This document shows positions 714 to 27,994 of a stretch of DNA of 32,140 nucleotides, piece after piece. The stretch is from a virus: the IMG/VR virus record IMGVR_UViG_3300030328_001409, positions 1 to 32,140 of that record; one strand, written 5' to 3'. The position numbers and the translations under genes are program-made. The first letter of the stretch is position 1. Each line of letters opens with the position of its first letter. The notes under the pieces were generated by a model. The model worked only from the letters and a program-made list of their open reading frames with translations, made no database searches and had not been told where the DNA came from.

Positions 714-1604
714 ATGAGTCGTGTCGCTGATCTACGGAGAGAGGCTGAATGGCGTAGATGCGTCAACGACGAAGAGCATTTTCTTCGCAATTATTGGCAT
801 ATCGCTCACCCTGCTCACGGTAGGATACTGTTTGATCTACGAGAGGCTCAAAGATACGCTCTCGGACATTGGGATGCTCACCGATACTCGCTAACCCTTA
901 AAGCGAGACAGATCGGATGGTCCACCTTAGTGGCGGCCCATCAGTTCTGGCTGGCGTTCTTCCACCCTGATCAAAACATTATTGACCTGTCACGTACAGA
1001 ACGTGAATCCGTTCTGTTGTTGAAGAAAACCAAGTACGGATATAAGCATTTGCCTGAATGGATGATAGACCGTGGTCCAAAATCGTTAATGGAACATCAA
1101 CAACGAATGGCGTTTGATAATGGATCACAAATAACATCCATGCCTTCAGCGTCAGATCCGGCCCGTGGCGAATCTGCCTCCCTCATAGTAGTGGATGAAT
1201 GGGCTTTCCTGCCTAACCCTGAAGAAGCATGGGCTTCCATAGAGCCGGTAGCCGACGTTGGCGGACGCATCATCGGCTTATCCACCGCTAACGGTTCAGG
1301 TAACTTCTACCATCAACTCTGGGTAGGGTCGCAGACAGGCGTAAACAAATTTGCGCCTATGTTTTTTCCGTGGTCTGCGACTGAGGACCGCGCGGATGCG
1401 TGGTATCAGGAGAAAGTTGACTCTATGTTGCCTTGGCAACTCGCGCAGGAGTATCCTACTACGCCGGAAGAGGCGTTTATTAAGTCTGGTAACCCTGTTT
1501 TTGATTTGGATGTTTTGGAAAGCATGGAGTTGGAGTGCCGTGAGGGTGCCTCTGGTTGGTTGCATTACGCTCAGGGCAGCGGTGTGGAGTTTAGAGTGTC
1601 ATGA
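714..1604 (+). CDS. terL: Terminase large subunit, ATPase half (split TerL)
   Basis: This is the N-terminal motor domain of the DNA packaging terminase. Motifs in order: a Walker A-like segment KARQIGWST (residues 63-71), Walker B LIVVDE (157-162, with D161 E162), and the coupling motif STAN (190-193). It ends 'PTTPEEAFIKSGNPVF' plus a short linker. In ordinary TerL proteins this linker continues directly into the RNase H-like nuclease, but here a TGA stop (1602-1604) ends the protein at 296 residues. The nuclease is encoded 266 bases further on, at 1870-2544. The stop overlaps the ATG of the ferredoxin gene (ATGA, 1601-1604), so translation is likely coupled. The two halves sum to 520 residues, a normal TerL length. 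The split could be functional (two subunits) or the product of a gene insertion. Confidence 0.92.
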   Translation: MSRVADLRREAEWRRCVNDEEHFLRNYWHIAHPAHGRILFDLREAQRYALGHWDAHRYSLTLKARQIGWSTLVAAHQFWLAFFHPDQNIIDLSRTERESVLLLKKTKYGYKHLPEWMIDRGPKSLMEHQQRMAFDNGSQITSMPSASDPARGESASLIVVDEWAFLPNPEEAWASIEPVADVGGRIIGLSTANGSGNFYHQLWVGSQTGVNKFAPMFFPWSATEDRADAWYQEKVDSMLPWQLAQEYPTTPEEAFIKSGNPVFDLDVLESMELECREGASGWLHYAQGSGVEFRVS

Positions 1605-1873
1605 GTTCTATAAAAGTGTGGATAGATCAAGATTTGTGCACTGGCGACGGCTTGTGCGCTGAGATTGCTCCTGATGTTTTCCAAATGCATGATGATGGTT
1701 TGGCTTATGTGAAGGAAAAGGAATGGTCAACTATTTATGGTTCCTCTGGTGCGGAACCTGTTTTGAAGATGGCTGAGGGTATGGCTGTTGTTCAGGAAGT
1801 TGACCTTGAGGCTACTATTGAGTCTGCTGAAGAATGTCCCGGTGAATGTATTTTTATTGAGGTTTTTGAATGA
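1601..1873 (+). CDS. Single-cluster ferredoxin encoded inside the terminase locus
   Basis: This is a 90-residue electron carrier. The cluster motif is C13-x2-D16-x2-C19 near the N-terminus, within DLCTGDGLCAEIAPDVF, and C79-P-G-E-C83 near the C-terminus. This matches one-cluster bacterial/actinobacterial ferredoxins. An Asp in the second ligand position, as in Pyrococcus ferredoxin, can coordinate a [4Fe-4S] cluster or leave a [3Fe-4S] cluster, so the cluster type cannot be settled from sequence. The gene overlaps the terminase ATPase gene by ATGA (1601-1604) and the terminase nuclease gene by ATGA (1870-1873). GGAG at 1586-1589 is a possible, rather distant ribosome binding site. Codon use resembles its neighbours, so this is not a very recent arrival or an assembly graft. 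Its redox partner is unknown. Confidence 0.9.
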   Translation: MSSIKVWIDQDLCTGDGLCAEIAPDVFQMHDDGLAYVKEKEWSTIYGSSGAEPVLKMAEGMAVVQEVDLEATIESAEECPGECIFIEVFE

Positions 1874-2544
1874 GTTTAACTGTTTGGAAAGAACCTGAAA
1901 GCAACCATATTTACTGTATGGGTGTTGATACTGCTGAGGGTTTAGCGCATGGCGACTTTTCCTGTATTCAGGTTTTGGATGTGCGTACGGGCGAGCAGGT
2001 CGCAATATGGCATGGCCATATTCCTCCTGACGAGTTAGCGCATGAGGTTAATAATCTTGGCTTGTGGTACAACAAGGCTTTGTGTTGCGTGGAATCCAAC
2101 AATCATGGTTTGACTACGATTGTTCAGTTGCGTCATTTGGGTTATCCGAACATGTTTAGGAAGCGTTCTTTGAATCAGGTCACTAATACTGTTTCGCAAG
2201 AGTTTGGTTGGAAAACTACTCGTACGTCTAAACCTTTGTTGATTGATGATTTGGGTATGGCTTTACGTAGCGATGAATTGCGGTTGTATGATCGTTTTAC
2301 TGTCGCTGAGTTGCGTTCTTATGTTCGTAATGAGCGTGGCACAATGTCTGGTTCTCCGCATGATGACCGTGTGATGGCTTTGGCGCTATCTAATCAGATG
2401 CGCCAATACGCTTTCATGCCAGAGTATGCTCCTGTTGTTGACGACTATTGGACTGTGGATTGGTTTATGAGAATGGTTATGAACGATGATTCTGATGCGC
2501 CTGACACTAAGATTGGTGCTGCAACTGTAAGAGGTTCTATTTAA
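1870..2544 (+). CDS. terL: Terminase large subunit, nuclease half (split TerL)
   Basis: This is the RNase H-like endonuclease domain that cuts concatemeric DNA during packaging. Acidic active-site candidates are D20 in YCMGVDTAEG, E75 in CCVESNNHG and D165/D166 in SPHDDRVMAL. These are the usual three positions of the TerL nuclease. The protein begins MSLTVWKEPE, which is where the interdomain linker of an intact TerL would be. The ATG overlaps the ferredoxin stop (ATGA, 1870-1873). A GAGG at 1859-1862 with a 7-base spacer gives it its own ribosome binding site. The codon immediately before the ATG in this frame is TGA, so read-through or frameshifting from upstream cannot extend it. An assembled motor would therefore need the two polypeptides to associate. 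Confidence 0.92.
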   Translation: MSLTVWKEPESNHIYCMGVDTAEGLAHGDFSCIQVLDVRTGEQVAIWHGHIPPDELAHEVNNLGLWYNKALCCVESNNHGLTTIVQLRHLGYPNMFRKRSLNQVTNTVSQEFGWKTTRTSKPLLIDDLGMALRSDELRLYDRFTVAELRSYVRNERGTMSGSPHDDRVMALALSNQMRQYAFMPEYAPVVDDYWTVDWFMRMVMNDDSDAPDTKIGAATVRGSI

Positions 2545-2863: not shown

Positions 2864-3133
2864 ATGGCGGTTTTACCACCGTCTGCTACCTTTGAAGAGT
2901 TCAGCGCTTATTGCGCTGAATTGAATGGACCTCAGACGGATGAAGAGGTTGCTGAATTGTGGGAGTGGCGGCAGAAACTTTTGGGTTTCCAAGTCATAAC
3001 TGGCGCTGGGTTTAGATCCATGCTTCCTGCCGATGAACAGCATATGACTATTAAAGAAAGAGGCGATAAGGCTTACGCTGAGGCGAAAGCGTCTGGTCGC
3101 AATATTGAACCTGTTGGAGAACGGTGGGTGTAA
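2864..3133 (+). CDS. Small acidic protein upstream of portal, unknown
   Basis: An 89-residue protein, probably mostly helical (TFEEFSAYCAELNG, TDEEVAELWEWRQKLLG). It starts 2 bases after the previous stop, and its own TAA shares its last base with the portal ATG (TAATG, 3131-3135). The order terminase / small genes / portal is common in podoviruses. I do not recognise a family and cannot say whether it is a small terminase subunit. Confidence 0.65.
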   Translation: MAVLPPSATFEEFSAYCAELNGPQTDEEVAELWEWRQKLLGFQVITGAGFRSMLPADEQHMTIKERGDKAYAEAKASGRNIEPVGERWV

Positions 3134-5019
3134 TGGCTCGTAAAACCCGTAAAGAAAAATATGAATTAATCAACGAGAGGCTTATAGCGTCTACTCGTTG
3201 GCGTGAAGAGATGGGTTATGACCGTCTTTGGCGACGCATGATTGACCTTTACCGGGGTAAGCATTGGCCACAAACTACTTCTAATGAAGATTTGATAGCG
3301 GTAAACATAGCGTTTTCCACTATTAACGTTATCGCTCCTTCGGTTTCAGTTAATCATCCTAAAATTGTTGTAACACCTAATAAGCCAGAGGACGAGGATC
3401 GTTCTGCTTTTGTTGAAGCAGTAGTTAATCATCTTTGGAAGCATCACGATTTCCGCAGCCCGTTTAAACGTGCTGTTAAAGATTTTCTTATTTTCGGTCA
3501 CGGCTGGATTAAAGTTGGTTGGAAGTTTGTTGAGCAGGAACGTGCGTTAAGCGATTCTGAAAGAGATGTTTATTTAGACGAAGCGATAATGGAGGCTGAC
3601 ACCTTCGCTATGCAGAACCCTGATTTGGCTGGGGATTTACCAACCGATGATGATTTGATGGCTAATTTACCTTCAACAGAGATGACCATTGTTGAAGATC
3701 AACCGTTTGTTGAACGTGTGTCACCTTTTGATATTCTCGTAGATCCTGAAGCGACGTGCATGGATGACGCTAAATGGATCGCTCAAAGAGTGATACGTCC
3801 TTTAGATGAAGCGCAGGCTGATAAACGATACAAACCTTCAGCGAGAAGAAAATTGTCTGCTGATGCTACTGTTACAGATGCGTTACAGAATCCTGCTAGA
3901 GATGACCGTTACGTTTCTGATGCTGAACGTGTAATCATTTGGGAATACTACGACATTATGGATAACACTATGTCTGTCTTGGCTGACTCTGGCGACGAGT
4001 TTCTTGTGGACCCAACTCCTATGCCGTATGCGTATGGTCAACCGTTTGTGATGATACGCAACTATGATGTTCCTGATTTCTTTTACCCTATGGGTGATTT
4101 AGAAGCAATAGAGTCTTTACAAGAAGAACTAGATAAAACCCGAAGTCAATTAGTTAACGCTAGAAAACGGTATGGACGTAAATATTTATACCATGAACGT
4201 TCTTTTGGTCCTGAAGGTCGTGAGGCTTTAGAATCTGAACAAGATGGACGGTTTGTTCCTGTTGTTGACGAGAACAAACCTTTGTCTGAAGTTGTTATGC
4301 CTTTGCCTCAGATACCGTTGTCGCCTGAAGTTTACAATACTTCTTCAATTATTGAAAACGATATTAACGTTGTATCAGGTGTTTCCGAGTATGCTCGCGG
4401 TCAAATGCCTGAGATAAGGCGTACTGCTACTGAGGCTTCAATTATTGCTGATGCTGGTAACGCTAGAGCGGCAGACAAGTTAGCAATCGTAGAATTAAGC
4501 ATCGGCATGATTGCCCGTCGCGTAATCCAAGTTATGCAACAATTTATGACTGGTGAGCAGATGGCTCATGTCGCCGCTAATGGTGGCGAAAATCTTTTCA
4601 TTCCTTTCAACAGAGAAGACATTATCGGAGAATACGATTTCAGTGTTGAGGCTGGTTCTACTCAGCCAATGAACGACACTATTAGGAAACAGCAGGCTGT
4701 TTCTTTACTAAACGCTATGGCTCCTTTGATTGGAACTGTAATTGATCCTATGGCTTTAGCGAAACATGTTCTTCAGCAAGGATTTGGTATTAAAAATCCT
4801 GATAAGTTTATTATGCAGCAACAACCTATGCCGATGGGACCGGAACAAGGCGGTCCTGAAGGTGGAATGGATGCTGCTATGGGGATGCCTCCTGATATGG
4901 GGGCAATGATGCCGCCTACGGCTCCTGAAGCCGGTGCTTTTGCACCGACTGGCGGCATTCCCCCTGAGTTGTTAGCACAAATGCAAGGCCAAATGGGTTT
5001 GGATTTGTTTAACTTATAA
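3133..5019 (+). CDS. Portal protein
   Basis: A 628-residue head-tail connector. It forms the dodecameric ring at the packaging vertex through which DNA enters and leaves the capsid. The N-terminus is a charged helix (KEKYELINERLIASTRWREE). The segments YRGKHWP, AVNIAFSTINVIAPSV and PFDILVDPEATCMDDAKWI are typical of podoviral portals in aquatic phages. The C-terminus from about residue 555 is Met/Pro/Gly-rich (GMPPDMGAMMPP) and probably disordered. The ATG at 3133 was chosen because it overlaps the previous stop (TAATG). An in-frame GTG at 3124 lies inside the previous gene and has no better ribosome binding site. Confidence 0.88.
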   Translation: MARKTRKEKYELINERLIASTRWREEMGYDRLWRRMIDLYRGKHWPQTTSNEDLIAVNIAFSTINVIAPSVSVNHPKIVVTPNKPEDEDRSAFVEAVVNHLWKHHDFRSPFKRAVKDFLIFGHGWIKVGWKFVEQERALSDSERDVYLDEAIMEADTFAMQNPDLAGDLPTDDDLMANLPSTEMTIVEDQPFVERVSPFDILVDPEATCMDDAKWIAQRVIRPLDEAQADKRYKPSARRKLSADATVTDALQNPARDDRYVSDAERVIIWEYYDIMDNTMSVLADSGDEFLVDPTPMPYAYGQPFVMIRNYDVPDFFYPMGDLEAIESLQEELDKTRSQLVNARKRYGRKYLYHERSFGPEGREALESEQDGRFVPVVDENKPLSEVVMPLPQIPLSPEVYNTSSIIENDINVVSGVSEYARGQMPEIRRTATEASIIADAGNARAADKLAIVELSIGMIARRVIQVMQQFMTGEQMAHVAANGGENLFIPFNREDIIGEYDFSVEAGSTQPMNDTIRKQQAVSLLNAMAPLIGTVIDPMALAKHVLQQGFGIKNPDKFIMQQQPMPMGPEQGGPEGGMDAAMGMPPDMGAMMPPTAPEAGAFAPTGGIPPELLAQMQGQMGLDLFNL

Positions 5020-5080: not shown

Positions 5081-5821
5081 ATGGAAGACGAGTTGATGGA
5101 ACCCACGGAAGTGGATACTTCGGAAGCGTCAGAGGAAGTATTAGAGGAACCTGTTGAGGGAGCCTACACCGTAAAGGTGGATGGCGAACAACATCAGGTC
5201 AGCCTTGAAGAACTTCAAGACGGCTACCAACGACAAGCAGATTACACACGTAAGACGCAAGAGTTGGCAGACGAACGTAGACGGTTACAGCAAGCGGAAG
5301 CGATAGTGTCTTCGTTGGAAAATAATCCAGCAGAGACTTTAAATGCTTTAGGAGAAGCCTTTGGTTTGGTAGCACAACCACCGGCTCCGATACGGAATAC
5401 TCATAATGATTGGTATGACGATGAAGAGCCTGAACAAATGGATGCTACTGCAATGCGCGTATCTGAATTAGAGCAACGTTTAGCGCAGCAAGATCGTCTA
5501 GCACGTAGAAATAACATAGAAAAACAAGTAGATAGTCTTAAAGATCAATACGGAGATTTTGACTCTAATGAACTTTTTCAACATGCGTTGCGGCACAAAA
5601 TAGGAAACCTTGAAGCAGCATTAACTCATATGCGGTTTAATGAAGTTTCTGATAAAGCGACAAAGTTGGAAAAGGAACAAGAGCGTACTGGGGCTAAACG
5701 GGATGCCGCAGTTGTTGAATCTGGTGGTTCAACAGCAGCGAACGCTGTTAAAACTCAGGCTAAAAATCCTCCGCAAACGATCAGAGAGGCTTTTGCTCAG
5801 GCTAAGAAAAACTTAACCTGA
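5081..5821 (+). CDS. Capsid scaffolding protein
   Basis: A 246-residue, strongly acidic, coiled-coil-rich protein directly upstream of the major capsid gene, the classical place for a scaffold. The N-terminal part includes a YTVKVDGEQHQVSLEEL segment followed by a long heptad-like region (QADYTRKTQELADERRRLQQ). The middle and C-terminal halves are helical with basic patches (AREAFAQAKK-like tail), as expected for capsid contact. Scaffolds direct procapsid assembly and are absent from mature particles. The ATG at 5081 follows GTGAGG. Function is inferred from composition and position, not from a catalytic motif. Confidence 0.72.
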   Translation: MEDELMEPTEVDTSEASEEVLEEPVEGAYTVKVDGEQHQVSLEELQDGYQRQADYTRKTQELADERRRLQQAEAIVSSLENNPAETLNALGEAFGLVAQPPAPIRNTHNDWYDDEEPEQMDATAMRVSELEQRLAQQDRLARRNNIEKQVDSLKDQYGDFDSNELFQHALRHKIGNLEAALTHMRFNEVSDKATKLEKEQERTGAKRDAAVVESGGSTAANAVKTQAKNPPQTIREAFAQAKKNLT

Positions 5822-5851
5822 TAATTTCACTGTAGGAGGTGGAGAAATAAA

Positions 5852-6793
5852 ATGGCTGGTAACAGTAATTTTGATGAAATACTTTCCACTACCCTGAATA
5901 ACTACGTGCCGAAATTAGTTGATAACGTCTTTTCGGCTCGGCCTCTGTTTTATGCCTTGACAAAAGGTGACAACATTCGGCGCATTTCAGGTGGTGCGAA
6001 AATTGTAACTCCTATTATGTATGGTTCAAACTCTACCGCTGCTTCATATTCAGGCGATCAGACACTGACGACTACCGCTCAAACGGGAATCTCAGCCGCT
6101 GAATACGACTGGAAACAGTACGCAGCAACAGTAACTATTACTGGTATTGAAGAAGCCAAAAATAATGGCGAGGCTCAAATAATTGACTTGCTTGAAGGAA
6201 AAATTTTCCAAGCACAGGAAACAATCATTGATAACATGAACACCATGTTTTGGGGTGATGGTTCTGGCAACTCAAGCAAGGACTGGGAAGGTGTGCAAAG
6301 TTTAGTTTCTGGTAGCACTGTGGGTGGTATTAACCCCGGTGGCTCTGGTAACTCTTTCTGGGCGCCAACTCAAACAAACCTTGGTGGAGCGTTGTCTCTT
6401 TCAGGAATGGGAACTATTTATAACACCATTTCTGTAGGTAACGACCAACCTACCATCATATTTGCAAGACAACAGGGCTATGAAGCCTACGAAGCATTGC
6501 TTTCAAGTCAGATTCGGTACACCGACACTGACTTGGCTGACGGTGGATTCCAAAATCTTATGTTCAAGGGTGCGCCCATAACATTTGATGATGCTTGTCC
6601 AGCAAATGAAATGTATTTCCTTAATACGAAATACATTCAACTTGTAGGCCACAGCGATGTTTGGTTCAAACCAACTCCGTTCGTGCGCCCAACTAACCAA
6701 GATGCTGTGTACTCACAAATTCTTAGTTACGGAAACTTAACTATTAGCAACCGTGCGCGTCAAGGACGTTTACACGGAATTACTAACGGTTAA
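5852..6793 (+). CDS. Major capsid protein (HK97-type fold)
   Basis: A 313-residue shell protein. The N-terminus (NFDEILSTTLNNYVPKLVDN) leads into a segment typical of phage coat proteins: RRISGGAKIVTPIMYG, then EYDWKQYAATVTITG. A central QETIIDNMNTMFWGDGSGN region and a C-terminal LGHSDVWFKPTPFVRP-like strand region complete the HK97-type order. The ribosome binding site TAGGAGGTGGAG (5833-5844) is the strongest in the window, consistent with very high expression. A stable hairpin follows the stop codon at 6805-6830. Family assignment comes from sequence pattern and from the portal-scaffold-capsid order. Confidence 0.88.
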   Translation: MAGNSNFDEILSTTLNNYVPKLVDNVFSARPLFYALTKGDNIRRISGGAKIVTPIMYGSNSTAASYSGDQTLTTTAQTGISAAEYDWKQYAATVTITGIEEAKNNGEAQIIDLLEGKIFQAQETIIDNMNTMFWGDGSGNSSKDWEGVQSLVSGSTVGGINPGGSGNSFWAPTQTNLGGALSLSGMGTIYNTISVGNDQPTIIFARQQGYEAYEALLSSQIRYTDTDLADGGFQNLMFKGAPITFDDACPANEMYFLNTKYIQLVGHSDVWFKPTPFVRPTNQDAVYSQILSYGNLTISNRARQGRLHGITNG

Positions 6794-15627: not shown

Positions 15628-18600
15628 ATGGCTCTTGACAGAGAAGATTACTTAAATAACCTTCCTACTTCTTTCCGTCCTGTACGTGGCGCAGGGGTTC
15701 AAGCGCCTGTGTCTTTGAGTCCTGACGTTCTTGCTGGTGTGCAAGAACGTTTAAGCCCTTGGACTACAGGCAACACGGACGCTGGCGGTGTCGGCGGTTT
15801 CGTAATGAAAACGTTAGGTATGCTTGACATGCCTCGTTCCGCTATTGCTTCCACCATTCAGGAGACTGTGGACCTTTTCCAAGGTGAAGGTTTTTCTGGT
15901 TCTGACTGGTTGCAGCAAACCCGTCAACATCACGGGTTTGGTGACATTATCGCTGACATGGGTATTGATGCTGGTTTAGGCGGTTGGGGTAACCGTATTA
16001 TAGGTTTTGTTGGGGATGTCGCTACCGACCCTTTGATGTGGCTGGGTGGTTTAAATGTTTACAGCAGGGCTAGAGGTGCGAGGGGTTTTATAGACGACGT
16101 AACGCCTCGTATCGGGGAGTTACGTAAGGCTGGTCAGGCTACTCCTGAGTTGCGTGCTTTAGAGGACGCTGTGAAGGCTGCAAGCAAAGGCAAGAGTGTT
16201 TCTGCTGCTCGTAACGTGCTGGTAAGAAAGCACGGTGATGTTGGCGCGCAACTTGTTAAAGATTTAGGTATTGACACTGGGTTGAAGTTTCGTGTGCCGG
16301 GTACCGGCCCTGTGTTGGGCCGTATGTCTCGTTCAACTCCGTTTGTGGGTTTGTCTTCTGCTAGGAGGGCAGGTCAGATTCCTGAATATACTCAGAGAAG
16401 GCTGGCTGGATCTTTAGGCAATGAGTCTTGGGAGAATTTGGTCAGGACGGCTGCGAGGAAAGAAGCGTTTGATAAAAGTGTAGATCCTGCTGTTCAACAG
16501 GTTGCTCGCAGGGCTGCTTACATGCCTGTTGAATTTTCTGTCCCTATTTTAGGTGGGTTCTTTGGAACGATTCAGGCGTTGCCGGGTTCTTTGGTTGGTC
16601 GTGCCGCTGTGAGTCGTTTAGGTCAGGGTATGGGTAAAACGTTCGGCACTCCTCAAGATAATATGGCCGCTAAACTTGCCCGTTCCGACAAGATAGAAGA
16701 AGTTATTTTGTCACATATTATGCGTAAAGGTAATATGCGTGGCGACACGATGGCTGCTCGTTGGCAGGCTACCAGTGGTGAAGCGAATATAAGATTCGCT
16801 AACCACATGAATCAAGATTTTGGTTTAACAGATGACCTGCTTTTGGGGAGAATTATATTAGAGGTTTCTGATGAAGAAGCAAGTCTAATTCTTGCTGGTG
16901 CTGTTAAAAATGAAAAAGGTGAATTGGTAGTTGGTTCTGGTGGTAGCAAACTTTCTCCTGCACGTGCCGCTAACTTGGAACAGAAATATGGAATGTCCAT
17001 AGAGAAAATTGCTTTGATTCGCATGAAGTGGACAGAAATGGTTGGCGATCCGTTAAAAAACTTTTTGCTAAGGGACGATGTTTATACATCTACTGGCAGA
17101 GTTTCTAAACAATTTGACGAAATGCTTTTAATGGAGGGCGGTTATTCTCCGCATACTTTATTTCAAGACGAGGTTGGCGGGTTCCAATCTGCCCGTGAGT
17201 TGTTACAAAATATTTGGGGGGATGTTCCTGACAGGTTACCTGCTTGGGTTAAAGGAATTTTAGAACCTGATGTTCCTTACGCTAAAGTTAATACTGCGGC
17301 TGAGGCAAGGGAACGTATACATTCTCGCCATATGCACGAACGTTCTCTCAAACCCACTTATGTGAACTCTGATGGGGTTCTTCAGTTGGGAACTGAAATA
17401 AATATTCCTTACAAAAATGACCCTACTCGTTCTGTAAGATTTAAGTTGCGTAGAAAAACGATGCAGGACGGTGTAGATGAAGTTAGGTTTTCTAAATACA
17501 TGGTTTGGGATGAAGCCGACCCTAGGTTTAACATGTCTACAACGGAGCAGATTGATTGGGCGTTCAGGGAGGCTGGTTGGATCGGCCCGAATGAATCTAT
17601 TTACACACGAGGTTACGCTAAAAGGCAAAGCGGTTACGCTTCTTCTTTGGGTAGAGATGTTCGTTTGGCTGTCAATGAACGGCATTTAGCAGATAACGGT
17701 ATTTTGTTCAACGCTGAAACTTTTGACGAGTATTTCGCTGTTATGAAACAGTACGACGAGTACGCTGAAAAGGTTGCTGCTCAGGTAGCGAAGTTAGATG
17801 CTGAAGCGCAGGCAGCAATGGAAGAAGCGGTTACGCTCGCCACTCTTGAATCTGGTCTAAGGCATACTGTTAAGAACACGAAGAGGTGGAGGGCGAAGGC
17901 TTCTGCTGATCGTGAAGCGGCTGCGTTAGGTATAGATGAAATTTTAAAACCTTTAGATGATTTTCTTGGCGGCACGGCTGCGAGAATGTTTATAACCGAT
18001 TTGATTAAAACTGGTCAAATTTCCGAAGACGGCATCAGGGTGTTGATGAAAGAGATTACTGCTTCTGTCGCTGAAAGTAACATTCTTCTTGTTGAATTAA
18101 ACGCTATACGTAAAGAATTAGATTCTTTACTGATTAAAACAGGGATGTATCCTGAAGGAAGCGTTATTGTCAAGGAGGCTGACGGTTCTTTTTCTATTCG
18201 TCATGGTTTAGAAGATCCTAATGCTGCTGATGCTGCTGAAGAATTATTGTATGGGGCGGGTTTGAATCAAAGAATTGATGCTGTCCGAGAGTTGGTTCCT
18301 ATAGTTGAGCGTCTTCAAAAACTTAGCGCTCGTTCCGATGTGATCAATAATGGTTTAGAAAAATTAGGTGCTGTTATTGACGATTTGGAAACCTTAGCCC
18401 CTGACGGCAAAGGTTTCCTTTCTGTTCCAGCGGCAAGCATCGCTGACAACATGAAGTTGGTTCAGGAGATGGTGGAAGACATCGGCGTTAACATGAAAAA
18501 GGTGATGTTGGATGATGAGACTGTTGTGGCGATGGAAGATCTGCAACGTTTTTATCGTGGAGACTACAGCGTTTATTATCCGGGTCAGATGTATCGGTCT

Positions 18601-21600
18601 TCTGGGGAATTGTTTGATTCTTTCTCTACGAGATTGAAGGGGCGCAAGCAGAAAACTTTAGGTAATTGGTTTCAAGATGGTGGGCATAATCTTCCTCAGT
18701 CTCGCAGGGAGTTGAATACTGTTAACAGGTTTGAGGGTCATCCTCGTGCTGCTGAGTTGAACGATATTGTTGAAGAGTATTTACAACTTGTTAAGGAGTT
18801 CCCAGAGGCTAGGTTGTTGATTACTGCTGATTTTACTGACGGTGCCGTTATGGGACGTTTGGGTCCAGATGTTCCAGTAGCGCCAAGTGCTAGACCTGTT
18901 GAAGTGACGTTGAATATAAATGAAACGATTCTGGCAGGGAAATCAAATCTTCCTGTTGAGGCTCAGAAACGTGCTGTAGATATTGCGGAGCGTTGGATGA
19001 ACAATACTGTTTTGTTGCATGCTGACATGTCTGGGAGGGTTTTGGTTGGAGAAGTTCCTGTTGAAATTAAAGCATTAGAAGTTTTACGCAAGTTAGAATC
19101 TCCTGTGTTAAGTGAACGGTATGTAATTCCGGTAAGAGATCGCACTCCTGCTAATCCTAATTTATTTGACGATGAGGTAATAGAAGTTTCTGGAGAAGGT
19201 GTGCGTCAAGTGGCTTCAACCAGAGGCGCTCTTCCTGAACCACGATCTGCTCTTTTCAGGGGAGAACCTACGCCGACAATAGATGAAATATTTTTTTCAC
19301 CTGTTGGAAAAACGTATTCAGATAATATACCAAATCCTCAGTATCTCCGCAACACACAACTTGAAAGCCGTCCTTTGACGGATAATTTAAGAAGATACTT
19401 TGAATTTGTTGAACAACGTTTAACAAATCTAAAACCTGATGATGCTGAAAAAGTTTGGGATGAGGTTGTTATGCCTTTGTTGTTTCCGAGCCATCGCAGG
19501 ATAGCAGGACCAGTTCGTCCAAATGAATACCTAGGATTTGATGGACCGTTTTCAAATGATTTTATTCGTTTAAGAAAAGCGTGGGAAGAGTACTACGGTG
19601 TAGGCAGATACAAAGACGGACCACCTGACACTCTTGGAACGCGATTAGAAGAATCACCTTTAAGCGGTGTTAAACAAACGGAAGAAATTTTAAGCAAATT
19701 TCCAAAAGAACCTAATCTTGACGTAAGGAAAATAAGACTTCAAACAGAATTAGAAAAAGTATTAAAAGATGTTGACTTCAGAGGTAAAGTTTATACAGCC
19801 GTTACAGAAGAAGGTAAAAGAAATTATGGCCGTTGGGCGACTTATGGCCGCGCCGGATTCCAAACAGAAAACGGATTACCTTTATCATCTAACCGATTTA
19901 TTGATACAGTAGAAGAAGCAATCGGAGGCACCCAAAAAATAAGGATTAGGAGAGAGCCTGTAAACACTTTCGGGCAAGACAACATGGTGCCTAATCAGCA
20001 AGGCGGTTTAGTGGCACGTGGCACAGGCAAGCACAACAAAGCGACCTTCCCGCCTGATGTGATCCCTTCTGAACAGGTTGGCCGAGTTCAAGACATAGGA
20101 CCAAAAGTTAACGATCCTAAAAAATGGGTTCCAATTTTTAAAGAATTGGAAGCACTTATTAACCACGAATTTTCTTTATCAGTTTTAGGTAAAGACATGT
20201 ACGCTAAAACTCCTGATCTTTTAAATAAACTTGTAGAAAAAATAAATGTTTTAAGGAACACAGGTGGAAGCAAAGCCACTTTGGTTGACGCAGACGATAT
20301 TATATCTGACGTTACTGTTAGCGCTGTTCCACGCCAAACTGTAGATTCGTTGTTTACTCCCGAAAAGTCTCCGAATGTTTTGAGATCTTTTCAAGAATCA
20401 GTAGTTTCTGAATTAGGTCCGAACCCTAGTTTAGATGACATCCATAATCTGTTTGAACGTATAGCGGCAGAGAATATGTCTGGTACGCACATGTTTACTC
20501 AAAGCGGAGAATTAACTTACATCCGCCCTCAAGTAAAAATGGAAGACGTTCTAGAAATAGCAAATCTTGTTAAAGGGCTTGATTTAAAGTTACCTGCTGC
20601 TCGTAAAGCATATCATGATGTTTTGGATCAAATGTTGGGGGAGCAAACAGACAGGCTTATAAACCTTCAGCGTAGATACGCTGAGGCTACTGCGAGAGAG
20701 CAGAGCCGAACTGTTGCTGTGACTGTTGCTGAACAAAAATTGTTAGATGCGGAACGGGCGGCTTTGCAGGCATTAACAAATAAGGAAATGTTGGAAGCGG
20801 AACGTTTGATGGCTCTTAACCGTCAGGCTAAAGAACACGACGTTTTTGTTTCTGAAACTTTCGGCGGCGGAAAAGGCGTATTTGATGAAGTAGATTTAAC
20901 CGGCCTTACAGCAAAACAGTTCCAAGAACTTTTTAATGATGATTCTTTAATGTGGGGTGCTTGGAGAATCGCTGGCGATCAAGAGTTCGCTGACCAAGTG
21001 ACTTACTCTCTGTTGGCTGTTCAAAAAATGAATGACCGTGAACAAGTCACAGGATTTTTGAAATGGTTTGACAGAACCCATAACTGGTTGAAGGCCCAGA
21101 TGGTTGCCACTCCGGGTTTCGTTACTCGTAACATTATGGGCGGAATGTTCAACATGTGGACTGAAGACATTCCGTTGAGCGCAACGCTTAGTACCGGCAA
21201 GATGATAAAGAAAGCATATCAAGAAGGTAGCGGCGACCTTCTTGCTGGTTTAAGGGCAATGGATCAAACTCCAGAGGTGCGGTTCGCTATTCAATTAGTT
21301 GAGATGGGCGCTCATGGCGGCGGTCAAGCCGCCTCCATGGTTGAACACAACCTGCGACTAACTCGTAAAATGGAATGGATTTTCGGCACTAAAGATGGTG
21401 CCGCTAAAGGCTGGCGTATAAATCTCAACCCGATAGATGCTCAGTTTGCTTTATACAGTGGGGTTCGTCACGCTAACACTTACGCTGAGGAAATGTTAAG
21501 GCTCGCTACTGGTATACACGCCATGAAGGTAGGCGGTTCGTTAGACGACGCTATTGACATGATTTACAGGTTGCATTTCAATTACGGCAATCTTTCCAGC

Positions 21601-22338
21601 AGGGAGAGCGACTGGTTTAAACGTTTGTTCCCGTTCTACACTTGGTCGCGTAACAATCTGCCTTTACAGATGACGCAGATGGCGAGAAACCCTAGACGAT
21701 ACAACAGACTGTTGAGTATTAAACGTAATTTGGAGTATGGCACGGAGGAAGAAGGAACTGTTCCTAGTTATTTCTTAGAACCGTTTGGTTTCCGTATGCC
21801 TTTCAGTATCGCAGGAAGCCAAGTTTATTCTGTCCCTGATTTACCTTTCCAAGATTTGTTAAGGTTTGACCCTACTGGTGTTGGGTTTACTGACGCAGCC
21901 CAACACATCCTTTCTGCTGGTTCACCTATGATTAAAGTTCCTTTAGAGTATTGGGGCGGCAAACAGTTCTTTAAAGGCATCCCTTACTCTGGCAGGTATC
22001 AGCAAGTTCCTGTCGTTTGGGAAAACATTCCGGGTTTGATGCCTGCTTTGTCTACTATCGGTTGGGCTGAAAAGAACAATAGGGGCGAATGGAAGATGAC
22101 GGATCAACGTATCGCTGTTATGGACGGTTTAATGCCTTATATTGGCCGTCTACGCCGCGCTGTTCCTAATGAACGACGCTATCAGGAGCGTGTAGTCCAA
22201 ACTCTTGTATCTACTTTGGGCGGTATGAGTGTGCGTATTAACACCCCGTATGAACAGGAAATGCAGCGCATACGTGACGTGATTGAACGTGATGAGGCTC
22301 TTCAAGACGCTGAAGATATGCGCTTCAGACAGCGCTGA
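15628..22338 (+). CDS. Giant (2236-residue) virion protein, probable internal/ejection protein
   Basis: The largest gene in the window, about a fifth of it. The N-terminus has a Gly-rich region (GFGDIIADMGIDAGLGGWGN). Long helical and charged stretches occupy the middle, including Ala/Glu-rich heptads around residues 1690-1740 (ATAREQSRTVAVTVAEQKLL). The last 350 residues contain a distinct module with LKAQMVATPGFVTRNIMGG, LYSGVRHANTYAEEML and KRLFPFYTWSRNNLPLQ (about residue 2000), which I associate with C-terminal regions of very large proteins in aquatic and actinobacterial phages. I see no transglycosylase, protease or kinase motif. Size and position suit a T7 gp16-like internal protein, but homology is not shown. 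Codons from about 19260 to 20300 are A-richer than in the rest of the gene. Confidence 0.75.
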   Translation: MALDREDYLNNLPTSFRPVRGAGVQAPVSLSPDVLAGVQERLSPWTTGNTDAGGVGGFVMKTLGMLDMPRSAIASTIQETVDLFQGEGFSGSDWLQQTRQHHGFGDIIADMGIDAGLGGWGNRIIGFVGDVATDPLMWLGGLNVYSRARGARGFIDDVTPRIGELRKAGQATPELRALEDAVKAASKGKSVSAARNVLVRKHGDVGAQLVKDLGIDTGLKFRVPGTGPVLGRMSRSTPFVGLSSARRAGQIPEYTQRRLAGSLGNESWENLVRTAARKEAFDKSVDPAVQQVARRAAYMPVEFSVPILGGFFGTIQALPGSLVGRAAVSRLGQGMGKTFGTPQDNMAAKLARSDKIEEVILSHIMRKGNMRGDTMAARWQATSGEANIRFANHMNQDFGLTDDLLLGRIILEVSDEEASLILAGAVKNEKGELVVGSGGSKLSPARAANLEQKYGMSIEKIALIRMKWTEMVGDPLKNFLLRDDVYTSTGRVSKQFDEMLLMEGGYSPHTLFQDEVGGFQSARELLQNIWGDVPDRLPAWVKGILEPDVPYAKVNTAAEARERIHSRHMHERSLKPTYVNSDGVLQLGTEINIPYKNDPTRSVRFKLRRKTMQDGVDEVRFSKYMVWDEADPRFNMSTTEQIDWAFREAGWIGPNESIYTRGYAKRQSGYASSLGRDVRLAVNERHLADNGILFNAETFDEYFAVMKQYDEYAEKVAAQVAKLDAEAQAAMEEAVTLATLESGLRHTVKNTKRWRAKASADREAAALGIDEILKPLDDFLGGTAARMFITDLIKTGQISEDGIRVLMKEITASVAESNILLVELNAIRKELDSLLIKTGMYPEGSVIVKEADGSFSIRHGLEDPNAADAAEELLYGAGLNQRIDAVRELVPIVERLQKLSARSDVINNGLEKLGAVIDDLETLAPDGKGFLSVPAASIADNMKLVQEMVEDIGVNMKKVMLDDETVVAMEDLQRFYRGDYSVYYPGQMYRSSGELFDSFSTRLKGRKQKTLGNWFQDGGHNLPQSRRELNTVNRFEGHPRAAELNDIVEEYLQLVKEFPEARLLITADFTDGAVMGRLGPDVPVAPSARPVEVTLNINETILAGKSNLPVEAQKRAVDIAERWMNNTVLLHADMSGRVLVGEVPVEIKALEVLRKLESPVLSERYVIPVRDRTPANPNLFDDEVIEVSGEGVRQVASTRGALPEPRSALFRGEPTPTIDEIFFSPVGKTYSDNIPNPQYLRNTQLESRPLTDNLRRYFEFVEQRLTNLKPDDAEKVWDEVVMPLLFPSHRRIAGPVRPNEYLGFDGPFSNDFIRLRKAWEEYYGVGRYKDGPPDTLGTRLEESPLSGVKQTEEILSKFPKEPNLDVRKIRLQTELEKVLKDVDFRGKVYTAVTEEGKRNYGRWATYGRAGFQTENGLPLSSNRFIDTVEEAIGGTQKIRIRREPVNTFGQDNMVPNQQGGLVARGTGKHNKATFPPDVIPSEQVGRVQDIGPKVNDPKKWVPIFKELEALINHEFSLSVLGKDMYAKTPDLLNKLVEKINVLRNTGGSKATLVDADDIISDVTVSAVPRQTVDSLFTPEKSPNVLRSFQESVVSELGPNPSLDDIHNLFERIAAENMSGTHMFTQSGELTYIRPQVKMEDVLEIANLVKGLDLKLPAARKAYHDVLDQMLGEQTDRLINLQRRYAEATAREQSRTVAVTVAEQKLLDAERAALQALTNKEMLEAERLMALNRQAKEHDVFVSETFGGGKGVFDEVDLTGLTAKQFQELFNDDSLMWGAWRIAGDQEFADQVTYSLLAVQKMNDREQVTGFLKWFDRTHNWLKAQMVATPGFVTRNIMGGMFNMWTEDIPLSATLSTGKMIKKAYQEGSGDLLAGLRAMDQTPEVRFAIQLVEMGAHGGGQAASMVEHNLRLTRKMEWIFGTKDGAAKGWRINLNPIDAQFALYSGVRHANTYAEEMLRLATGIHAMKVGGSLDDAIDMIYRLHFNYGNLSSRESDWFKRLFPFYTWSRNNLPLQMTQMARNPRRYNRLLSIKRNLEYGTEEEGTVPSYFLEPFGFRMPFSIAGSQVYSVPDLPFQDLLRFDPTGVGFTDAAQHILSAGSPMIKVPLEYWGGKQFFKGIPYSGRYQQVPVVWENIPGLMPALSTIGWAEKNNRGEWKMTDQRIAVMDGLMPYIGRLRRAVPNERRYQERVVQTLVSTLGGMSVRINTPYEQEMQRIRDVIERDEALQDAEDMRFRQR

Positions 22339-25907: not shown

Positions 25908-25975
25908 TTAACGTACCTCGCTACCACAAAAATGAATAAAACAAATGTTAATGTCCACGCTAAGGTGACTGTCAT
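25904..25975 (-). CDS. 23-residue transmembrane micro-protein between primase and resolvase
   Basis: Reads MTVTLAWTLTFVLFIFVVAR followed by YVK: one hydrophobic helix of about 18 residues with a short positive C-terminus. Its ATG overlaps the primase stop (ATGA, 25972-25975) and its TGA overlaps the RusA ATG (ATGA, 25904-25907). AGAGGAATAAGAGA precedes it. Perfect coupling on both sides plus a protein-like composition make it credible despite its size. The role is unknown. Confidence 0.55.
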   Translation of the reverse strand: MTVTLAWTLTFVLFIFVVARYVK

Positions 25976-26961
25976 TCTCTTATTCCTCTCACTGAACGTT
26001 GAGCCTTCTCTACAGTCTCCCATAAACGTTTACGCCCGTCAGGTCGGTTAGCAAACTTTCCGCCCCAATCTTTGTCAGCAGATTCTAATTCTGTAAGAAT
26101 GTCTGCGGCACCAAACCCTTGCTCGTGCATGGCGCAGGCTAAAGAAAACAGTGTTCCTGACCTGTCTCCGTTAGGGTTTTTGCTGGTGATGCGTGGACCG
26201 TTGCGTCTTATCGCTCCGGCTAATCCACGCATGTTGGAAGTAGACAGGAACGGATTAACTTTAGGTATCGGCGCTGGTTTAGGTTTGACATACAGCCCCA
26301 AGACTGGTTCCCAGTCTTCGGGTGTGACTCTTGTTTCGTATGCCATTCGGCAAAACTCTTCACAAGATAAGTCTTCTCCACCTTCAGGATCAAGAACCAC
26401 GTTGCGTCCTACCCTCGCAGGTATGGTACCGTTCGCATCTATTTTAGATGGGTACGGTAACCGCACTCCGTTGCCCCAGCCTTTACCGCTGAGCACTGTC
26501 TGTTTTGGATTCACTTCTTTGATAGGTGCATCCACTATTTTACAGGCGGCGATTAAACCGTTGCGTACATCTACGGCAGGTAGCGCTTCCGTGAAGAACA
26601 CCCAAAGGTGATATCCTTTTGAGCGTGACCGTTCAACCCATGAAGGTACGTCTAGTTGCCAGAGTAGGGTCTGCACGTTGGTGGCGTGGATAAGAGATTC
26701 TTTCTCTCCTTCGTCCCAATCTACACAACCCCAGTAGACAACGTATCGGTCTTCTTCCTTCTTTAACGGGTACACACCAATGGGAGTTTTGTAACTCCCA
26801 AAGTGCGTAAGTACTGCGTTGTAGAACTCTTCTCCCGTCGCTTCCTTCGGTTCTTTTGTGTCTGATTCCCACGGTCTAAACCCCTTACTGTCGTCGTAGT
26901 TATCTATGGCTATCCGGCCACCTTTAAACAATTCAGCGAATCGTTCTACGGTGCTATCCAT
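25972..26961 (-). CDS. Archaeo-eukaryotic primase (AEP/PrimPol-type)
   Basis: A 329-residue primase. Metal-binding motif D81-W-D83 lies in YWGCVDWDEGE; the S-x-x-x-H motif is in SRSKGYH (S114-H118) followed by LWVFF; a GNGVRLPYPSK segment (about 163-173) forms the third conserved region. This is the AEP catalytic order. The C-terminus (from about 240) is a small helical domain (SGTLFSLACAMHEQGFGAAD, then WETVEKAQRSV) of the type found after phage and plasmid AEPs. The ATG at 26961 was chosen because GGAGGTGA lies 8 bases upstream; the in-frame GTG at 26973 falls inside that site. It overlaps the helicase by 8 bases, so primase and helicase form one coupled pair. Confidence 0.82.
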   Translation of the reverse strand: MDSTVERFAELFKGGRIAIDNYDDSKGFRPWESDTKEPKEATGEEFYNAVLTHFGSYKTPIGVYPLKKEEDRYVVYWGCVDWDEGEKESLIHATNVQTLLWQLDVPSWVERSRSKGYHLWVFFTEALPAVDVRNGLIAACKIVDAPIKEVNPKQTVLSGKGWGNGVRLPYPSKIDANGTIPARVGRNVVLDPEGGEDLSCEEFCRMAYETRVTPEDWEPVLGLYVKPKPAPIPKVNPFLSTSNMRGLAGAIRRNGPRITSKNPNGDRSGTLFSLACAMHEQGFGAADILTELESADKDWGGKFANRPDGRKRLWETVEKAQRSVRGIRE

Positions 26962-27994
26962 CGGGATGTTCACCTCCGTCTGGTATTAGTTCATCCCAAT
27001 AAGGATGAATGTGTCCACACTGAGGGTCCAAATAGTATGCGTAGTCTCCTAAACGGGCGGTGCGTTTGTTTTTGCACAGGTTCATTTGGATACTGTTCTC
27101 ATGGTATTTGGTTTCCCAATCGGTGAGATCCGGCGCATCTTTCTTGCGGTACACTTCCAGCACGAAGATTGCTTCTTGTTCTCCTCCGTATCGTCCAGCG
27201 TGGATACCGGCGGCTTGGCCTCGGTTCCCTGCTGATCGTCCGGCTTGGTGAACTAAAGCAATCGGCACACGTTGAGTTTTAGCCCAACGTTTAACTGCTT
27301 GCGCTTTGGCCGTGACCCCTGATGCGTCGGCTTCTCCGCCGGGCAATAATTCTAGGTAGTCAATCATGCAGAACGATGGGTTCTTACCCCACCATGCTCT
27401 TGCTTCATCCATTGCCGCTGACATGGATTCCAGAGTCATAGATTCGTCAATGATTGCCACACGTGATAACTCTTGTGTGGCTGCTCGCTCAAGATCAGAC
27501 AGTGTGTCCTTATCTCCAGCCTTGATTGCTTCTTCTACTTCTGACGATGATCTGCCTTGTAAGAGGCAGAATAGTTTCATCACCACTAGTTCTCTAGGTT
27601 CGTCCATTGAAAATATGACAACGTGGGCTTCGGGGTCGTTCACTAAGTTGGTCACAATACTGTTTAACAGTACTTGTGATTTACCTGTGTGACTCCGGCC
27701 TACCACCAACAACACTTCTCCACGGCCTATGCCACGTGTCGCTATGTCTATTTCGGAAAATCCTAGGTACCAGCGTTCTGATGGGTTGCGTATAAAACCT
27801 ATAAGGTTCTCTACGACTGCTGATGTTAACGCAAAACGAAGAGGCTTCTTACTTCCAGAGTCCTCTGAGACGGCCACAGAGCCGTTCTCAGACGTTTCCA
27901 GAGGTTCAGAAGGGTTACCCCCCGTCGCTGCCGCTTCTTGTGCAGCAGCGAGTCGGGAGGCTACTTCGTCCTGCGAGTGCAGGACTACATCCAT
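26954..27994 (-). CDS. DnaB-like replicative helicase / RecA-fold ATPase
   Basis: A 346-residue ring-helicase-type protein. Residues 1-50 are a variable acidic tail. The RecA-like core has a Walker A GRSHTGKS (99-106), HVVIFSMDEPR, and a Walker B hhhD in SFCMIDYLELL (D212). VPIALVHQAGRSA and an Arg-containing KNKRTARLG complete the DnaB/gp4-type core. No N-terminal primase or zinc domain is present; priming is supplied by the next gene. It begins at TGATG, one base overlapping the previous stop. Confidence 0.82.
   Translation of the reverse strand: MDVVLHSQDEVASRLAAAQEAAATGGNPSEPLETSENGSVAVSEDSGSKKPLRFALTSAVVENLIGFIRNPSERWYLGFSEIDIATRGIGRGEVLLVVGRSHTGKSQVLLNSIVTNLVNDPEAHVVIFSMDEPRELVVMKLFCLLQGRSSSEVEEAIKAGDKDTLSDLERAATQELSRVAIIDESMTLESMSAAMDEARAWWGKNPSFCMIDYLELLPGGEADASGVTAKAQAVKRWAKTQRVPIALVHQAGRSAGNRGQAAGIHAGRYGGEQEAIFVLEVYRKKDAPDLTDWETKYHENSIQMNLCKNKRTARLGDYAYYLDPQCGHIHPYWDELIPDGGEHPDG

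Follow-up and report, generated by a model that had tools for sequence, protein, structure and literature searches.

Separate ATPase and nuclease genes for a T4 gp17-like terminase in a clade of marine podovirus-like phages, with a ferredoxin gene as apparent late cargo at their junction

In known large terminases (TerL) the ATPase that pumps DNA and the nuclease that cuts it are tethered; how the motor changes over from one activity to the other is a long-standing question. A single-chain TerL is the rule in tailed phages, and TerL genes can be interrupted by introns, inteins or homing endonucleases. The window analysed here, the first 32,140 nucleotides of a virus record of 38,153 bases, encodes the two domains in two genes with a complete ferredoxin gene between them. 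This raises the question of whether the ferredoxin made the split, takes part in the motor, or came to lie at a junction that was already there. The ORFs and profile matches confirmed the three genes where an earlier note on this DNA had placed them. All three frames are open, they succeed one another in -1 frames (714-1604, 1601-1873, 1870-2544), and both junctions are ATGA overlaps. The features of the locus are as follows.

714..1604, plus strand: ATPase half of TerL, 296 aa (Terminase_6N, motifs, AlphaFold2 model)
1586..1589, plus strand: GGAG, possible ribosome-binding site for the ferredoxin gene (from the sequence)
1601..1607, plus strand: ATGAGTT, left border and ferredoxin start, its ATGA overlapping the ATPase stop (from the sequence)
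1601..1873, plus strand: ferredoxin, 90 aa, apparent inserted cargo (Fer4_15)
1859..1862, plus strand: GAGG, possible ribosome-binding site for the nuclease gene (from the sequence)
1870..1876, plus strand: ATGAGTT, right border and the usual nuclease start of the clade (from the sequence and relatives)
1870..2544, plus strand: nuclease half of TerL, 224 aa, RNase H fold (D20/E75/E147/D165/D166, PHROG match, model)

Pfam analysis of the ATPase half revealed Terminase_6N (2.8e-6), and that of the nuclease half Terminase_6C at 3.7e-4, slightly below the curated cut-off. Both halves matched terminase families of PHROG, namely phrog_5989 (4.4e-29) and phrog_24361 (4.9e-20), respectively. The ATPase half carries Walker A (KARQIGWST, residues 63-71), Walker B (VVDE, 159-162) and the STAN motif (190-193), and is closed by a beta-hairpin (281-295); the nuclease half carries the acidic residues D20, E75, E147, D165 and D166. 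All motifs named in the earlier note are thus present, and the Walker A/B residues and nuclease acids are invariant, or nearly so, across relatives, in split and single-chain sets alike. Modelled separately with AlphaFold2, each half is predicted to fold as a complete domain. The ATPase half (pLDDT 88.8) found its best PDB match in the T4 gp17 ATPase (2o0j, TMq 0.75), and the nuclease half (pLDDT 81.2) in the TerL nucleases of T4 gp17 and G20c (3cpe, 5m1o). Profile alignment equated ATPase residue 235 with T4 gp17 residue 321 and nuclease D20 with T4 gp17 D401, which puts the break near T4 residue 381/382, directly before the first RNase H strand carrying D401. The break had been placed in the interdomain linker; it does lie between the domains, but past the T4 hinge, which we take to be at about residues 357-366, and before that first strand. 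Together the halves make up 520 aa (296+224), a normal TerL length as had been supposed, against 560 aa in the intact relative ct52p938. The dN/dS values were 0.03-0.05 for the ATPase, 0.03-0.07 for the nuclease and 0.04-0.09 for the ferredoxin, and all three genes are under purifying selection. A Walker A/B ATPase domain with the ASCE terminase fold and an RNase H-fold nuclease with conserved acidic residues, both features of Terminase_6 proteins, were found; the union of both domains in one polypeptide was not. The terminase of the window has every tested TerL feature except the single chain.

It was pertinent to ascertain how far the split extends. A scan of IMG/VR with the ATPase half returned 559 relatives; the analysis used the best 80 of these, and two further scans added more, including single-chain forms. 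The sample, mostly metagenomic contigs, covers the best 80 matches per scan out of roughly 560-600 or more, so that rare re-fused TerLs could escape it. Both halves were present in 241 sampled loci, 160 of them split and 81 single open frames. Throughout the clade of the window (160/160 sampled loci), as the two-chain terminase proposed earlier would have it, ATPase and nuclease come from two abutting genes whose catalytic residues are intact, and the nearest relatives outside the clade have one chain (81/81 sampled). Among 78 representatives in a concatenated tree, a single branch (SH-aLRT 100) separated the split loci from all others, which requires one change. The split is ancestral in this clade and of single origin. 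Its direction was presumably from single to split, because tailed phages as a rule have a single chain. The open-access literature searched yielded no earlier account of a two-chain or two-gene TerL, an absence that is weak evidence. Reassortment of the two halves was considered for L053 and L066, which are placed differently by the single-half trees, and was dropped, since the AU tests gave no ground against a shared history (p 0.52 and 0.28).

We regard as the best reading, with a probability of about 0.87, a vertically inherited two-chain T4 gp17-like terminase that was fissioned once and whose junction tolerates exchangeable auxiliary genes. The ancestor of a large marine podovirus-like clade would have undergone a single split of its T4 gp17-like TerL, just ahead of the first RNase H strand. 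Thereafter the motor would consist of two polypeptides, encoded by abutting and mostly overlapping genes whose structure, conservation and single origin are seen in the relatives. On the portal the two chains would presumably come together as a single working terminase, in which the ATPase ring would pump DNA and the nuclease chain would dock to cut concatemers.

Could the two halves still be rejoined into a single chain during translation, by programmed frameshift or readthrough? The short overlaps would suit such a mechanism, and most relatives keep the -1 relation. The genes overlap by ATGA in 74 split loci, by 7 bases in 61 and by 20 bases in 8, and a few junctions are at -1, 0 or +2. These stop-to-start distances (-4, -7, -20, -1, 0 and +2) cover all three frame relations; TGA, TAA and TAG stops all occur, and 10 loci have whole genes between the halves. 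Together, this variety of frames and stops and the intervening genes argue that no conserved frameshift joins the chains, which makes rejoining quite unlikely. Empty junctions span only a few bases, and split relatives often have a GGAG-like motif within the end of the ATPase gene, ahead of the downstream start.

The ferredoxin matched Fer4_15 (PF13459; 5.9e-17, 62.6 bits against a curated cut-off of 22.4); NCBIfam gave no name for it. It shows the ligand pattern C-x2-C/D-x2-C...C-P, with C13, D16, C19 and C79 as predicted cluster ligands. These are invariant in 14 phage sequences, as is C83. D16 stands where, in Pyrococcus furiosus ferredoxin (1siz), Asp likewise replaces the second Cys, and from this resemblance a [3Fe-4S] or Asp-ligated [4Fe-4S] cluster is expected. 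The top cellular matches were Acidimicrobiia ferredoxins, with roughly 60-68% identity, in keeping with the earlier proposal that a gene of ultimately cellular type had been captured. The phage form shares the KVWIDQDLCTGDGLC...CPGECI sequence with actinobacterial Fer4_15 single-cluster ferredoxins, but has an extra segment of roughly 12 residues and sits in phage operons. Most phage ferredoxins form one clade apart from the Acidimicrobiia host genes (SH-aLRT 96) and a few others are nearer to the hosts, so that more than one capture may have occurred. A homologous ferredoxin in isolate phages was sought in 50,697 phage records and none was found. The Acidimicrobiia gene (L129-L206) mostly has an ORF read as trmI on one side and an Mpa/ARC-like ATPase on the other, with Dop/PafA-like and Pup-like ORFs after the ATPase; all these names are readings of translated sequences. 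The host homologue of the phage ferredoxin thus recurs in the Pup-proteasome locus, a review of which mentions no ferredoxin (PMC8223512).

Among the sampled clade, only the window, L002, L003 and L004 have the ferredoxin between the TerL halves; joint conservation of split and ferredoxin, the check proposed earlier, did not hold in the relatives. L001, whose proteins are 99% identical to those of the window, reads gtttcGTGAGTTTAACTG at the junction, a clean empty site. Its place on the tree is next to the window and within the group that bears the ferredoxin, which is most simply explained by loss. L005 likewise has nothing at the junction; its ferredoxin gene lies about 1.7 kb upstream, in the opposite orientation. 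In other phages of the clade the ferredoxin lies upstream of the ATPase, in several of them between TerS and TerL. The same junction holds a PAPS-reductase-like gene in four loci, L013 (5873-6721; phrog_424, a moron/AMG family), L017, L018 and L047. A 44-aa Cys-rich, zinc-ribbon-like protein is encoded there in L040 (5885-6019) and L050, and is missing from the closely related L052. No intron, intein or endonuclease was seen among these junction inserts. A 2OG-Fe(II) oxygenase gene lies just upstream of the ATPase on the opposite strand in L011 (Pfam match), with similar ORFs in L024, L025 and L396.

The ferredoxin also moves by itself. L003 and L086, from different neighbourhoods, have only the 266-bp ferredoxin gene in common, at 87.6% nucleotide identity. 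Most phage ferredoxins belong to one main clade that occurs in many phage contexts, and a ferredoxin-seeded scan placed the gene next to a class II RNR, a peroxiredoxin, a single-chain TerL of a different type, and lysis or tail genes. Directly 3' of a class II (B12) ribonucleotide reductase it was found in L094, L095, L108, L110 and L114, and the two may possibly form a functional pair. In L098, L101, L102, L104 and L107 it comes right after a different single-chain TerL (phrog_979 in L107). Ferredoxins thus recur beside terminases in several unrelated arrangements. Gain and loss at the junction are suggested by the empty sites, the other cargo in the same place and the exchange of the ferredoxin alone between unrelated phages. 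The lineage of the window would have gained a phage-borne ferredoxin there, and one close relative apparently lost it. Being sporadic, with empty sites in close relatives, and moving independently of its neighbours (L003/L086 and the many contexts), the ferredoxin behaves as late cargo of the moron/AMG class, although the gene is tightly overlapped on both sides in the window. That the site is a tolerant one, as had been suggested, is borne out.

This bears on whether the ferredoxin is a partner of the packaging motor, for example in a redox-sensitive assembly or as a regulatory subunit. That it recurs not only at the split junction but also between TerS and the ATPase and right after another, single-chain TerL would invite such a role. 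However, most split-TerL phages have no ferredoxin within the flanks examined, L001 has none at its junction, many of the ferredoxin neighbourhoods, such as those with a peroxiredoxin, a class II RNR, or tail or lysis genes, are unconnected to packaging, and other cargo takes the same site. A motor partner is therefore improbable, and a redox role with the motor, raised in the earlier note, found no support in a gene that moves independently of TerL. In its most specific form, a redox-gated two-chain motor, with ferredoxin repeatedly recruited because its redox state modulates how the terminase assembles or cuts, the idea is just as improbable. Judged by its family, the ferredoxin would most likely serve during infection as an auxiliary carrier of electrons to redox enzymes of host or phage, and not as a part of the motor; no partner enzyme for it came to light in the window.

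The junction itself suggests how a small gene may enter without harm. The GGAG at 1586..1589 sits inside conserved VEFR codons of the ATPase end, and L001 and L005, whose sites are empty, have it ahead of the nuclease start; the GAGG at 1859..1862 is supplied by the 3' end of the ferredoxin. The junction would be a favourable site, as it is within the packaging operon and has start and stop signals on its flanks, so that insertion of a small gene in register would spare both chains. ATGAGTT does occur at both borders as had been noticed, but by itself it was rejected as an insertion scar, since 51 of the 160 sampled split relatives start the nuclease gene with it. The ferredoxin begins with the same seven bases as the presumed original nuclease start, and joining at such a short shared sequence would fit this. 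That the capture of the ferredoxin itself split an intact TerL in the lineage of the window, as first supposed, would explain why the ferredoxin lies exactly at the break with ATGAGTT at either border. This is highly improbable, since all 160 sampled clade loci are split, almost all of them without ferredoxin at the junction, L001 and L005 are split yet empty, and ATGAGTT is an ordinary nuclease start. Of the conditions the earlier note set against its reading, a ferredoxin elsewhere in relatives did turn up, but their TerL is still split and the halves have no disabling mutations. An assembly chimera or pseudogene decay, conceivable as the window is a single metagenomic contig, has next to no probability, as three other assemblies (L002-L004) have the identical order, the catalytic residues are intact and dN/dS is far below 1 in all three genes; misassembly, foreseen earlier as a refutation, thus falls away.

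The two-chain terminase lies in a packaging operon whose gene order matches that of the single-chain relative ct52p938.

3124..5019, plus strand: portal protein, SU10/P22-type, downstream in the packaging operon (Pfam/PHROG)
5081-5821, plus strand: scaffold (within 5081..6793)
5852-6793, plus strand: major capsid protein (within 5081..6793)
37366-37791 of the record: TerS homologue (gene neighbourhood)

Short repeats occur at the start of the record (1-165), and its final 76 bases (38078-38153) recur at 90-165; together with the position of TerS, this suggests a circularly permuted or end-redundant genome. Elsewhere, this 38-kb phage has an ORF of 2236 aa (15628-22338) without Pfam match and, on the minus strand, an AEP-type primase (TOTE/PrimPol-like; 25972-27994) adjoining a DnaB-like helicase. 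A tRNA scan of the window detected none.

A split TerL of 78% identity with the same gene order was found on a 37.6-kb contig in one of 395 Acidimicrobiia genomes, and no TerL match above 36% in 294 genomes of a control class. The hosts of the split-TerL clade are thus probably Acidimicrobiia, judging from this one contig, for which mis-binning or co-sorting is possible, and from the kinship of the ferredoxin.

A clade with separate, conserved chains is a natural experiment in which covalent tethering is evidently dispensable, and it would allow dosage, docking and timing of the nuclease to be tested directly. The junction indicates that even the two halves of a hallmark gene can have auxiliary genes inserted between them. 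Surveys that expect TerL as one protein of roughly 500 aa may read these phages as fragments.

Compared with known systems, the window shares both domains, the motifs and the fold with T4 gp17-type TerL (Terminase_6N/Terminase_6C; 3cpe, 2o0j), as well as the operon position next to portal, scaffold and major capsid protein, and differs in that two genes supply the two domains as separate polypeptides. Podovirus ct52p938 (MW202803), the nearest annotated relative with a single chain, has 57% identity in the ATPase and 44% in the nuclease and the same gene order; unlike the window, it and the IMG/VR relatives L237-L316 have one gene with no break and no insert, so that an intact relative lacking both, of the kind the earlier note proposed to look for, exists. 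The ferredoxin resembles phage morons/AMGs, such as the phrog_424 PAPS reductase, in being a small independent gene, sporadic and exchanged, between conserved late genes, but its site lies between two halves of a terminase. With TerLs interrupted by introns, inteins or homing endonucleases the window has a discontinuous TerL coding sequence in common; in contrast to these, each of its halves is a complete gene that has a start and a stop of its own, and the cargo is metabolic.
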